NCBI GenBank assembly: GCA_025998675.1
Contig: AP024673.1
Span: 1,019,221 to 1,083,220 of the forward strand
DNA: 64,000 bases
Source of the DNA: Fimbriimonadales bacterium
GTDB taxonomy: Bacteria; Armatimonadota; Fimbriimonadia; Fimbriimonadales; GBS-DC
Direction of reading: 5' to 3'
Shown: one piece after another, positions 53,120 through 57,433 of the stretch
Numbering within the stretch: position 1 is the stretch's first letter
Layout of the letters: each line of letters starts with the position of its first letter
The notes under the pieces: model-generated
What the model was told of the DNA's origin: nothing
The model's input: the letters and a program-made list of their open reading frames with translations, nothing else
Databases searched by the model: none
Made by a program: the position numbers and the translations under genes

Positions 53120-53797
53120 ATGGCGCGCGCCATCGAGCGAATTGTCTGGCACACCGCCGCGCACGGGCGCGACGGGCAGGCGTTTGACACCACCGCCGCC
53201 CAGATTGACCAGTGGCATCGCGAGCGCGGCTGGAGCGAAATCGGCTACAATGTGGTCATCCGCTTCGACGGCTCGCTTGAAAAAGGACGCGACCCGCGCA
53301 AAATCCCCGCAGGCGTCGCAGGCATCAATCGAACCACCTACCATATCTGCTTCTCCGGGCACGGCGACATTGCGCCGCTCACCCCGCAACAGTTAGAAAG
53401 CGGCGTCCAGCACACCATCGAAATGCTCCGCAAGTACGGATTGACCGAACGGTTCCTGAGCAAACCCGACGCGCTGATTGTGATGGGGCATCGGGAGGTG
53501 AACGAGCTGGTGCGTCGCGGGCTGGCGCCCACCCCGACCAGCAAGACTTGTCCGGGACGGCTGGTGGACATGGATGCGGCGCGCTTGCTCATCCGCCAGC
53601 GGCTCACGCAACCGTCTGCGCCCGCGTACACCTACGATGCGCAGGCGGCGGGCGAACTGTTTGAGGGACTCCAGCAGGTCTACGCCGCCGCTCAGAAACT
53701 GAACCTGCCCGAGGAAGCCGTGCGCTTCCTCAATCAGTTCCGCAAGCAGCCCGAAGTGGACGACGCCATCCGCCGCTGGAAAACAGAGCCGCGCTGA
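53120..53797 (+). CDS. N-acetylmuramoyl-L-alanine amidase, T7-lysozyme/PGRP type
   Basis: A 225-residue amidase_2-like protein that should cut the bond between MurNAc and L-Ala. The zinc ligands are in WHTAAHGRDG (His near 11), MGHREVN (His near 122) and KTCPGRLVDMD (Cys near 140). IDQWHRERGWSEIGYNVVI followed by DGSLEKGRD is the T7-lysozyme-like signature. There is no signal peptide, as in phage endolysins. A helical tail of about 60 residues follows. AGGAGG lies 5 nt before the ATG. It lies just upstream of the four-gene operon at 53.9-57.4 kb, and a common phage-like origin is possible. Confidence 0.82.
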   Translation: MARAIERIVWHTAAHGRDGQAFDTTAAQIDQWHRERGWSEIGYNVVIRFDGSLEKGRDPRKIPAGVAGINRTTYHICFSGHGDIAPLTPQQLESGVQHTIEMLRKYGLTERFLSKPDALIVMGHREVNELVRRGLAPTPTSKTCPGRLVDMDAARLLIRQRLTQPSAPAYTYDAQAAGELFEGLQQVYAAAQKLNLPEEAVRFLNQFRKQPEVDDAIRRWKTEPR

Positions 53798-53896
53798 CAG
53801 CCCCGGTAAATCGAATGAGGGCGGCGCTCGGCTCCCCCGTCTTCGGCTGAAAGTGATTCCTCGCCCCTGAGTGACACCCCAAAACTCCACTGCCTA

Positions 53897-53929
53897 TTGA
53901 CATAATAGTCCAATTAATGCTATAATTGG
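53897..53929 (+). promoter_or_regulatory. Consensus promoter with operator-like palindrome
   Basis: TTGACA (53897-53902), 18 bases, TATAAT (53921-53926): the only promoter in the window with a perfect -35 and -10. CCAATTA (53910-53916) and TAATTGG (53923-53929) form a perfect inverted repeat over the -10 box, a natural repressor site. The ATG at 53933 is 6 nt after the -10, so the transcript is leaderless. Confidence 0.75.
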
Positions 53930-53932
53930 GCT

Positions 53933-54289
53933 ATGCGTACACAATCGCTGACAGTGTATGTCGGAGTGGTTCAGGTGGACGCTTCGGCAAAGGATGTGCT
54001 GAACCAGACAGAGCCGCTGGCGCCGACCTTCGTGAATATGGAGGCGTACCGCGCCTTCTACTGGACGGGCGTCAAGCGGGGCGACGCGCCCATCGCCTAC
54101 ACCGTGCGTGGGGGCAACGGCAACGGCTGGCAGTGGAGCGCGTCGGGACAGATTACGGGGACGGCAGGCAGCTGGTTCCGGGTGGTTCTCAAGCCACCTG
54201 CGCCCTACAGCAGGTATCGCCTTGAAGTGTCCGGCGCGCCCCAACTGCTGCACAGCAAACTCACAGGACTTCAGGAGGTCGAAGCATGA
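53933..54289 (+). CDS. Small beta-sandwich protein A of the unknown operon
   Basis: A 118-residue protein without signal peptide. The C-terminal two-thirds contain EAYRAFYWTG, NGNGWQW, SWFRVVLKP and YSRYRLEV, a pattern shared with the next two proteins. An all-beta fold is predicted by eye. The family is not recognised. Translation should start on a leaderless mRNA from the strong promoter at 53897-53926. Its stop overlaps the next start (ATGA). Confidence 0.7.
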   Translation: MRTQSLTVYVGVVQVDASAKDVLNQTEPLAPTFVNMEAYRAFYWTGVKRGDAPIAYTVRGGNGNGWQWSASGQITGTAGSWFRVVLKPPAPYSRYRLEVSGAPQLLHSKLTGLQEVEA

Positions 54290-54801
54290 GCGCCGAGCGA
54301 ATCACACGACGGGAAATGCTAAAAAGACTGGTAATCGCGCCGATTGGCGTAGCAGCGCTTGCCGCGCTGGAGATGCAACACGCGCACGCGGCGACCATGC
54401 AGCTGTATTACGAGCCGTACTTCGTTGCCGTGTTGTGTGAGGGGCGCACACGCTGCGACACCCTGTGGCGTAGCATGGTAGGCGACACGCTGCCCCTTGT
54501 GCCCACCGTACAGCACACCACGCCGTATGACCGCCTCTGGTGGATGGGCTACGCGCTGGGCAGCGCGCCTGTGGATATGAATGTGCGCATTCTGGCGCGC
54601 GCCGTCGACCGCAACGGCGTCCCGCTGGGACCCGGGTGGCGCACACTGGGACAGGCGACCCTCCAGACTCCGCCCCTGCGCTGGTTCCGTGTGGAAATCC
54701 CCGAGGGGCACTGGGACGAGTATCGCATCGAGGTGCGCAGCGCAACCCCACGACTGGTTTACTCGCGCCTGATCGCAAGTCAAGGCTATTGGAAGGAGTG
54801 A
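54286..54801 (+). CDS. Exported beta-sandwich protein B (Tat-type signal)
   Basis: A 171-residue protein. The N-terminus ITRREMLKRLVIAPIGVAAL has the twin-arginine pattern (RREMLK) and a hydrophobic core, then AHAA as cleavage site, so export of a folded protein through Tat is likely. The mature part has the same scheme as its neighbours: YDRLWWMGYALG, GPGWRTLG, RWFRVEIP, WDEYRIEV. The family is unknown. It overlaps gene A by 4 nt. Confidence 0.7.
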   Translation: MSAERITRREMLKRLVIAPIGVAALAALEMQHAHAATMQLYYEPYFVAVLCEGRTRCDTLWRSMVGDTLPLVPTVQHTTPYDRLWWMGYALGSAPVDMNVRILARAVDRNGVPLGPGWRTLGQATLQTPPLRWFRVEIPEGHWDEYRIEVRSATPRLVYSRLIASQGYWKE

Positions 54802-54806
54802 ATACG

Positions 54807-55292
54807 ATGCCTGTACGCTTTCTCAAAAATACTTCGGAGATTGCTGATGTGAGCGTCGAGTCGCCGCTGCCAGTGGCGCTGACCAACGCGTCGCTGGTTC
54901 CTGCCGACACCCTCCTCGTCGCAACGCTCGGCGTCAACAACACCGCCAACCGCGACCTGCTCGGCAGCACCACCACCGAACAGCCCACGCTCACAGGCTG
55001 CGGACAGTACCGAAAACTTATCTGGACTTACTTCCGACAAGGCGCGGACGCGACCACCTACTGGGTCTACGCGCGCACCACCGACCCGCTCAGCGGCGAA
55101 CCACTCAGCACAGGCTGGCAGCTGCTGACCGCCAGCGCAGGCGAAACCCTGCCCGGCGGCGCGAACGAATGGGGACGCATCGACATCCCCGCCACAGGCG
55201 ACGCCTACTACGACCAGTACCGTATCGTCGTCCAGCGCACAGGCGGCTCAGCTAACTACGACATGACCTTCAAAATCGTGGGGGTGCGCTGA
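54807..55292 (+). CDS. Small beta-sandwich protein C of the unknown operon
   Basis: A 161-residue protein without signal peptide. It starts MPVRFLKNTSEIADVSVESP, a sequence style seen in phage structural proteins. GQYRKLIWTYFRQG, STGWQLL, EWGRIDIP and YDQYRIVV repeat the scheme of proteins A and B. GGAAGGAG precedes the ATG. Its stop and the next start share one base (TGATG). The family is unknown. Confidence 0.7.
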   Translation: MPVRFLKNTSEIADVSVESPLPVALTNASLVPADTLLVATLGVNNTANRDLLGSTTTEQPTLTGCGQYRKLIWTYFRQGADATTYWVYARTTDPLSGEPLSTGWQLLTASAGETLPGGANEWGRIDIPATGDAYYDQYRIVVQRTGGSANYDMTFKIVGVR

Positions 55293-57433
55293 TGCCGAAC
55301 CTGCTAATTGTGTGGCGGTTTCCGAACGCCACCATGCCCTCGCCAGTGCCCGTGAGTCGAATGCTCCACCATTGGGGCTATACGACTGAAGTCGCCTATT
55401 ACCAATCCGAAACGCAGCTGATCACGCGCGGCGCAGGAACCATCGCGCCCGACGGTACAGCGGCGCGCAACTACATCCGCCAGTTCGACGCCGTGCTGGT
55501 GTTCAATGTCGAACGGTTTGGGTCGGCGTCTGCATCGCCTGGCGACGCCGCCGCCGCATGGCTCGGCTGGAACACCGACGACGATCCGCCCGTGCTGTTT
55601 TTCGGGATGAACCTGCACGCCAGCCGAACCGCGCTTAATACGCGCCTGCCCAGCGATTTCCCCATCATTCGCTGGAACCCCAGCGACGCGAATACCTTCT
55701 ATGAGGCGGAAACCGCCGCGAGTACCAGCCCACATGTGCTCAGCTCGTTTTGGGGCGTACCCTGTCGCGGTGGAACCACAGTGCGTCTCACACGCGAGAA
55801 CCTGCGCCTGCACACGTCGAGTTTTGTGGGGTACGAAATATCTGGCACGAACCAGCTCTACTTCGCACGACTCAATCCATCCGCGCACGCGAGCTTGCAA
55901 AGCACGAACATCACTTATCGCGGACGCACGATGCCCAAAGGCGAACTGCTCGCGTATCCCGATTACTCCGAATCGGCGCATAGCGGCGGGCGCGCGTTCG
56001 GCACAGACGCCGTCGCCGCCTACCGCTACGCACAGCATTACCTGCTGCCCAACAGTCTCGCGAATACGCGCTCGTGGGTAGATATTCAGAGCCTTTACAG
56101 TTTCTGGCTCCCATACGGGCTGAAGCTTGCAGGCGTCCTGCCGTCGCGCCCGTTCCCTGTCTACTTCGAAACCGACCATTTCATGACGATACGCCCTGTC
56201 GGTTATGACGCGACAACGCTGCTCACGAGCTACCGCGCGTTCTGGGAGTGGCTGGCGGATTTCACCTATTCGCGCGGCACGCACATCATCTGCGGGACTT
56301 ACGGCTCGAATACGACGCTGGGTGTGCGCTCGCATCCTATCGACAGTGAGGTAGACGCAACACTGAACCCCGCGCAACGCGCGATTGGCGAACAGGTGCT
56401 GCAAATCCTGCGTGCGAACCACCATCGCGGGCTGCCCGTCGGGATCCACGACCATGCGGTCTTTGCAGGGGCTGGATGGGGCGATAACGCCATCGGTACA
56501 GGCACAATCTACCGCCACACCGCGACTGAACGGTGGACACGCGGGAAACCCAACGATGTGCGCCGCCGCGCGGGGCGCCTTGTCCGTAAAGACGCCTACA
56601 CAGGGACGCCGCCTGCAGGAACGCTGGAAGTCGACATCGACGGGCAGACCTATTACGATATTCCGACCGGCGCGCCTGAAGAGATGACAGGCGCAGGCGA
56701 TCTCGCCAGCCCGCACCGACACCGCGATTACCATCTGGCGAAGATTGTAATCGAGCGCGGCGAGGAGTATGTGGTGAACCAGCTCGGATTCCCCGACGCA
56801 TGGTGTGGGCAGCACCGCTACACGAACACGGCAGGCAATAGCTCAGGTGGCATGGGTTATTGTCTTGCGTTGAAAGAGAAAGGCGTGCGCGGGATACGCC
56901 ACGAGGACTCACCGACAGTGGGCGCGTTTCAGCAACGCGTGCCTATCTCGCGCATGTGGAACGGCGTCATACTTCCGCTGGCGCGGGCGATCGAATCGTC
57001 AGGCGCACCTACGGGCGGTTTATACCACCCCAGCAAAAGCAACTGGGTCGCCTTTGGTGGTACGAACAATTTCAACATCAACAGCGACATCTCCACGAAC
57101 TGGGACACGCAGTACGCGGCGATGGCGTGGCGGGCGTACCAGCGGATTATGACGACTGCGCTCACAGGCTGGCTCGGCGCGAGCATTCGGCTCGAAGCGC
57201 CGTACTGCCATCCTCCAAACATCGTGGCGATGCTCAGCCCCACGAACCCGAACGCCGATTTCGACCCTGCGATTCAGAGCTATATCGGGATCGCGGACGG
57301 CGTACCGTCGCCGCACTTCAACTACCTGCGCGAGCTAATGCTGCAGATGGACGCTGTGATAGGGATTCTACCGGAGTTCTACCGCTGGGGCACGGTGACG
57401 GATGTGATGGATCGGATAGAGGCGGGGGTGTAA
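55292..57433 (+). CDS. Large protein D of the unknown operon (713 residues)
   Basis: There is no signal peptide. The first 120 residues look like a Rossmann/GATase-type fold (NLLIVWRFPNATMPSPVPVS ... QFDAVLVFNVERF). The middle part has VYFETDHFM and, later, GLPVGIHDHAVFAGAG, histidine/aspartate clusters that recall the polysaccharide deacetylase (NodB-like) metal site; this is a tentative reading. The C-terminal part is rich in Asn, Gly and Trp (TNNFNINSDISTNWD). It may act on a glycan together with proteins A-C, or be a particle protein. It overlaps gene C by one base. The family is not recognised. Confidence 0.65.
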   Translation: MPNLLIVWRFPNATMPSPVPVSRMLHHWGYTTEVAYYQSETQLITRGAGTIAPDGTAARNYIRQFDAVLVFNVERFGSASASPGDAAAAWLGWNTDDDPPVLFFGMNLHASRTALNTRLPSDFPIIRWNPSDANTFYEAETAASTSPHVLSSFWGVPCRGGTTVRLTRENLRLHTSSFVGYEISGTNQLYFARLNPSAHASLQSTNITYRGRTMPKGELLAYPDYSESAHSGGRAFGTDAVAAYRYAQHYLLPNSLANTRSWVDIQSLYSFWLPYGLKLAGVLPSRPFPVYFETDHFMTIRPVGYDATTLLTSYRAFWEWLADFTYSRGTHIICGTYGSNTTLGVRSHPIDSEVDATLNPAQRAIGEQVLQILRANHHRGLPVGIHDHAVFAGAGWGDNAIGTGTIYRHTATERWTRGKPNDVRRRAGRLVRKDAYTGTPPAGTLEVDIDGQTYYDIPTGAPEEMTGAGDLASPHRHRDYHLAKIVIERGEEYVVNQLGFPDAWCGQHRYTNTAGNSSGGMGYCLALKEKGVRGIRHEDSPTVGAFQQRVPISRMWNGVILPLARAIESSGAPTGGLYHPSKSNWVAFGGTNNFNINSDISTNWDTQYAAMAWRAYQRIMTTALTGWLGASIRLEAPYCHPPNIVAMLSPTNPNADFDPAIQSYIGIADGVPSPHFNYLRELMLQMDAVIGILPEFYRWGTVTDVMDRIEAGV

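Follow-up and report, generated by a model that had tools for sequence, protein, structure and literature searches.

A prophage-linked module of jelly-roll and deacetylase-like genes in Fimbriimonadales and a dispersed phage head-and-packaging gene set of Armatimonadota

Four tightly coupled genes, termed A, B, C and D, were analysed in a stretch of 64,000 nucleotides of Fimbriimonadales DNA (hereafter the window; positions 1,019,221-1,083,220 of genome G000, which is 2.99 Mb long and consists of a single contig). Genomes, contigs, loci and families are referred to by our own G, C, L and f handles. With a confidence just above even, it was concluded that A-B-C-D forms an exchangeable module by which a phage-derived particle attaches to exopolysaccharide or modifies it. 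The larger finding is a widely inherited set of phage head and packaging genes, dispersed over the chromosome, which from its sequence features is a probable undescribed gene transfer agent (GTA) of Armatimonadota.

An earlier note had proposed A-B-C-D as a four-gene system, and the same gene order was sought in other genomes. The block was found again, since A-B-C-D was present in G008 and G004, A-B-C without D in G010, and C-D at further loci. In G008 the genes followed an amidase gene at the same site as in the window, and D was truncated by the contig end. In G004 the order was protease, cement, major capsid protein (MCP) and A-B-C-D on one strand, and in both G005 and G016 it was protease, cement, MCP and C-D. 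The capsid protein of these clusters was assigned to PF10124 (Mu gpT, 2.9e-63), the cement protein to PHROG_1731 (1.1e-27) and the protease to PHROG_976 (1.9e-9). G000 also carried a Mu-like prophage (C1 ~658-688 kb, L067-L069) containing transposase, TerL, portal, capsid, cement, tape measure, tail tube and endolysin genes, with its own C-D pair at the end, behind the endolysin. In a prophage of G017, an 831-aa D homologue was located right after a holin gene, amid portal, scaffold, capsid, tail terminator and tape measure genes. More C-D pairs, some of them degenerate, were found in G013, G014 and G017, and C was upstream of D at the full-length C-D loci. Because the C-D pair recurred, repeatedly beside capsid or lysis genes, it was taken as the core of the module. 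Genes in the relatives were called by a simple scorer of open reading frames based on codon usage, and the exact starts there are approximate.

A, B and C were not separate families, a point missed in the earlier note. The three proteins were paralogous (phmmer E-values of 1.8e-10 for A-B, 2.7e-5 for A-C and 3.7e-8 for B-C) and could be placed in a single alignment, so the idea of four unrelated families was dropped. They differed at their N termini: A had no extension, B had a twin-arginine translocation (Tat) signal, and C had a tag of ~24 residues. As had been noted before, A, C and D lacked a Tat signal; the Tat-type N terminus was kept in B of G004, G008 and G010. The AlphaFold model of C was a jelly-roll-like beta sandwich with a predicted local distance difference test score (pLDDT) of 85.7. 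No Pfam or PHROG family was found for any of the four proteins, and a sequence search of solved structures gave chance-level matches only; at the level of sequence families, the module is indeed undescribed.

The genes were present and intact as first described, with a 4-nt overlap between A and B, a 5-nt gap between B and C, and a 1-nt overlap between C and D. No second exact match to the TTGACA-18-TATAAT promoter occurred in the 64 kb, and shuffled sequences gave an expectation of 0. Its -10 box was situated 6 nt from the ATG of A, and therefore the A mRNA should be leaderless. The layout recurred before A in G008 (TTGACG-18-TATAAT-6-ATG) and, at a different genomic place, in G004 (TTGCAA-17-TATAAT-7-ATG), which supported the promoter. 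The palindrome CCAATTA..TAATTGG, regarded earlier as an operator over the -10 box, was found in the window and was missing from the G008 and G004 relatives; it was therefore not credited as an operator.

The C-D pair showed marks of exchange. One block of 2,520 bp, 97.5% identical at the nucleotide level, was common to the prophage of G000 and the capsid locus of G004, with no similarity upstream of it; its edge was ~35 codons into C, just past the tag, and it ran through D. The prophage C bore a different tag. The tag of the window C was 79% identical to those of G008, G004 and G005, whereas the C bodies were 44-53% identical. When the window was compared with G008, amino-acid identity was ~83-91% for the flanking genes, 90% for the amidase, 67% for A, 78% for B, 59% for C and 29% for D, and nucleotide similarity ended near the end of C and returned just after D. 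Judging by these alignments, D alone is swapped at the window locus relative to G008; the closest relative of the window D was the D of G016 (62%). An anchor with an exchangeable distal part was thereby seen as a genetic signature only, made up of the swap edge, the tag at four chromosomal loci and the replacement of D. At this genetic level, the pattern is that of receptor-binding modules, in which a particle-specific tag is joined to an exchangeable business end. We infer that a shared C tag would mean the same particle.

The same C-D module in the Mu-like prophage of G000, the recent exchange with that prophage in another species, and the degenerate copies in G010 and G014 could also be explained if A-D were the tail or spike module of a decayed or recombining prophage, useless to the dispersed head genes. 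This was judged improbable, because three genomes kept A-D intact behind a conserved promoter (in G008, D runs into the contig end), A and B were under purifying selection (ratios of nonsynonymous to synonymous substitution, dN/dS, of 0.33 and 0.18), and the window locus was devoid of any other prophage gene.

The model of D had the two-domain fold of N-deacetylases of the NDST/Agd3/PelA type. The matches were the human heparan-sulfate N-deacetylase NDST1 (Z 16.4, 378 residues aligned, model residues 2-713), Agd3 (13.8) and PelA (12.2), with a Foldseek E-value of 2.7e-5, and they ranked above those that covered just the N-terminal glutamine-amidotransferase-like domain of D. The model had a pLDDT of only 70.8 and a predicted template modelling score of 0.79. 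No Pfam family was found for any of 10 D homologues at E <= 1. In NDST1, a Rossmann-like N-terminal domain is followed by the deacetylase domain, in which D319 is the base, D320, H389 and H393 bind the metal, and H529 is the acid (PMC10864358). D contained the motifs ExDH (D295-H296) and HDH (H386, H388), and this pair was conserved in distant homologues, with DD in place of DH in the D of G005. The Asp/His motifs were in the same order as in NDST1, Agd3 and PelA, but D differed from these proteins by HxH instead of HxxxH spacing, by the lack of a detectable sequence relationship and by its linkage to phage genes. Because of the different spacing, the deacetylase assignment, which is based on the fold and motifs rather than on the geometry of the site, is given as putative. 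When single proteins were used as queries, D had no match in GTDB contigs, IMG/VR or phage records, and C had one marginal match in phage records, with 37% coverage. The alignments of D and of A/B/C diverged too strongly for pattern scans of IMG/VR. The case foreseen against a system, that D would turn out to be an ordinary enzyme of known kind whose neighbours are unrelated, did not materialise. The predicted fold would place a protein of the heparan-sulfate-deacetylase type in a phage module.

A shorter chromosomal homologue of D, 544 aa long, was present in most family-f1 genomes (in G000 at L245:8818-10452, C1 ~965.8-967.5 kb). It adjoined a UDP-glucose dehydrogenase gene in G000, G005 and G016 and was situated among glycosyltransferase genes in G004 and G016. 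From these neighbours, uronate-containing exopolysaccharide of the host is a likely substrate class. They would also fit ordinary cell-surface polysaccharide machinery, in which D would be a host exopolysaccharide deacetylase and A-C its binding modules, with no particle involved; the export of B and a glycosyltransferase gene downstream of D in the window are consistent with it. Such a role was considered highly improbable, as C and D had no export signal, C-D was found in prophages and behind capsid genes, and the A-D unit was free of glycan synthesis genes. The earlier suggestions of a phage-derived particle and of a glycan-acting surface system were both supported, the first by the linkage of C-D to capsid and prophage lysis genes and the second by the predicted polysaccharide-deacetylase fold of D, and they seem to be complementary aspects of a single system.

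Lysis-gene linkage was observed in the window, in the G000 prophage and in the G017 prophage, where C-D or its homologues were near endolysin or holin genes. It was considered whether C and D, and possibly A and B, act as accessories of a lysis cassette, being set free in soluble form at lysis and loosening exopolysaccharide or damaging membranes without ever being part of a particle. The fold matches of C included XepA (Z 8.3) and YomS (Z 7.9), beta-sandwich proteins of prophage lytic cassettes (PMC6834076), which like C are found near prophage lysis genes. These scores, weak for a common fold, were no better than those of unrelated jelly-rolls, as the list was generic (Ena appendages, PirA and capsids among others) and was used solely for the label jelly-roll; in addition, C, unlike XepA and YomS, goes together with D and with capsid genes. 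Protease-cement-MCP genes were directly linked to the module in three genomes, and C had a tag-and-swap architecture. The accessory role was consequently regarded as unlikely.

The head genes were surveyed in 61 genomes of 33 genera in the sampled order, and the capsid gene also in 291 genomes of the phylum. The MCP gene was single-copy in most relatives and was present in 42/61 genomes (26/33 genera) of the order and in 124/291 genomes (67 genera) of the phylum. Within the order, TerL was found in 49 genomes and portal in 47, in each case in 27 of the genera. The named relatives of the G000 capsid gene were mostly from Fimbriimonadales and other Armatimonadota. No close free phage was found, the best identity being ~36% in phage records and 32-33% in IMG/VR. 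In G000 the genes were endogenised across several loci, hundreds of kb apart, with portal at 1.23 Mb, protease-cement-MCP at 1.41 Mb and TerL at 2.27 Mb. The other families of the order had genes for small membrane proteins and for two short proteins downstream of protease-cement-MCP, and there TerL and portal usually formed a pair at another site. The MCP and TerL trees matched the host families, with the fewest family changes possible, and had the within-genus pairs G000 plus G008 and G009 plus G011 in common; these family-change counts are the measure by which vertical inheritance and co-diversification were recognised. The Walker A and B, coupling and nuclease aspartate residues of TerL were kept, and dN/dS between G000 and G008 was 0.06 for MCP and 0.16 for TerL. 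An encapsulin-like compartment was dropped as a candidate, as the presence of TerL and portal in single copy points to DNA packaging. The set is largely in agreement with the sequence-based criteria listed for gene transfer agents (PMC9662315), except for tail genes. A search of open-access full texts brought up no published gene transfer agent of Armatimonadota.

In L018, L019, L020, L084, L097 and other family-f1 loci, the 100 bp upstream of 7/14 protease genes and of 6/15 TerL genes contained the motif GGTTGCC, against 1/561 of the remaining upstream regions. It is a possible shared promoter element of these genes; as orthologues are not independent, the contrast is no more than suggestive. 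Separately, the capsid gene of G001 was split into two reading frames (L189:7101-8028), which is either decay or an assembly error.

Several observations weigh against the assignment of A-D to a phage-derived particle. No tail genes were found for the dispersed set, in which TerL, portal, protease, cement and MCP were present, although this falls short of showing that a tail is absent; the tail search recovered the tail tube family and tape measure of the prophage just sporadically, and a 741-aa protein behind the G018 capsid gene had only weak partial matches in other genomes. The window A-D was not adjacent to capsid genes and had a sigma-70 promoter instead of the GGTTGCC motif that precedes many protease and TerL genes. 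The module was limited to some members of family f1, with D homologues also in family f19. Finally, linkage to lysis genes fits a released enzyme equally well, and the HxH spacing of D is unlike that of NDST1.

The following mechanism was proposed. C would bind the particle through its short N-terminal tag, while its jelly-roll end would work with D; that C anchors D in this way is, on balance, slightly favoured. D, as a metal-dependent N-deacetylase-like protein, would trim or grip N-acetylated exopolysaccharide on target cells or in biofilm, in the manner of phage and Rhodobacter capsulatus GTA (RcGTA) spike enzymes. Action of C-D at the target-cell surface is quite probable, and modification of an N-acetylated exopolysaccharide by D is reasonably probable. 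No signal peptide was seen in D, and it would therefore meet its substrate only upon lysis of the producer, plausibly by an endolysin, for instance the amidase encoded next to A-D. The Tat-exported B probably places the same binding domain outside the producing cell; its display there as a decoy or mask is doubtful. The particle would most likely be formed by the dispersed, vertically inherited TerL, portal, protease, cement and capsid set, with prophages using the module too. That the window copy serves this candidate agent, and not just a prophage, was given slightly less than an even chance. A bolder version was thought somewhat unlikely: an ancient, domesticated lineage of single-copy, scattered Armatimonadota GTA genes, possibly with a very reduced or unrecognised tail, for which, within one family, the choice of target is governed by a prophage-traded plug-in of jelly-roll proteins and an exopolysaccharide N-deacetylase, and B masks or marks the producer surface.

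In RcGTA, a sugar-binding or sugar-degrading spike, fibre and lysis genes are encoded at ectopic loci away from the head-tail cluster, and the lysis module is separate (PMC13420450). The arrangement found here was likened by description to these head spikes and TspA, with spike genes off the head-tail cluster and a separate lysis module. It differs in that TspA is another, trimeric enzyme and a detachable tailspike, whereas D has an N-deacetylase fold. The dispersed, vertically inherited head and packaging genes are shared with Rhodogtaviriformidae, Bartogtaviriformidae and Brachygtaviriformidae; unlike those, the present set has a Mu gpT-type capsid, belongs to another phylum and has no recognised tail genes, and here a particle is predicted from genes. 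If the head set makes particles, a further bacterial phylum would join those with domesticated gene-transfer particles, and their vertical inheritance there would be deep. If the reading of A-D is true, it would show how particles track changing cell surfaces, by a sugar-modifying module traded with prophages.

Table 1. Features of the window locus (window positions) and of the dispersed head and packaging genes (positions in G000)
Feature	Position	Strand	Description
Amidase_2-type amidase	53120..53797	+	225 aa; PF01510, PHROG amidase
Sigma-70 promoter TTGACA-18-TATAAT	53897..53926	+	perfect consensus, unique in the window
Gene A, bare jelly-roll paralogue	53933..54289	+	118 aa; phmmer to B and C
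Gene B, jelly-roll paralogue with Tat signal (ITRREMLK...AHA)	54286..54801	+	171 aa; paralogy, N terminus
Gene C, jelly-roll with N-terminal tag MPVRFLKNTSEIADVSVESPLPV, partner of D	54807..55292	+	161 aa
Gene D, putative polysaccharide N-deacetylase-like, exchangeable	55292..57433	+	713 aa; fold, ExDH/HDH motifs
Protease-cement-MCP (L065/L066)	C1:1411055-1413195		single-copy
Portal (L200)	C1:1233456-1234523		single-copy
TerL (L097)	C1:2272815-2274032		single-copy

The gene upstream of A encoded, as described before, a T7-lysozyme-like, endolysin-like N-acetylmuramoyl-L-alanine amidase with no visible signal peptide. It matched PF01510 Amidase_2 (E 1e-11, 45.7 bits against a cut-off of 26) and the PHROG amidase family (1.4e-25), and its motifs WHTAAH, MGHRE and K[TS]CPG, catalytic motifs of the family, were conserved in 15 orthologues. 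The gene was under strong constraint (dN/dS 0.07). Its inclusion in the A-D unit was not borne out: it was found across family f1, usually beside a tetratricopeptide repeat (TPR) gene and mostly without A-D, and in most genomes of the genus it was syntenic beside the TPR gene without A-D. It was therefore regarded as an older resident and not as the founder of the unit. That the dispersed head set uses the amidase for lysis is a guess. Intergenic short repeats of the type CACGGACAGGACTGTCCGTG were observed upstream of the amidase gene in several species of the genus (L047, L048, L051, L055).

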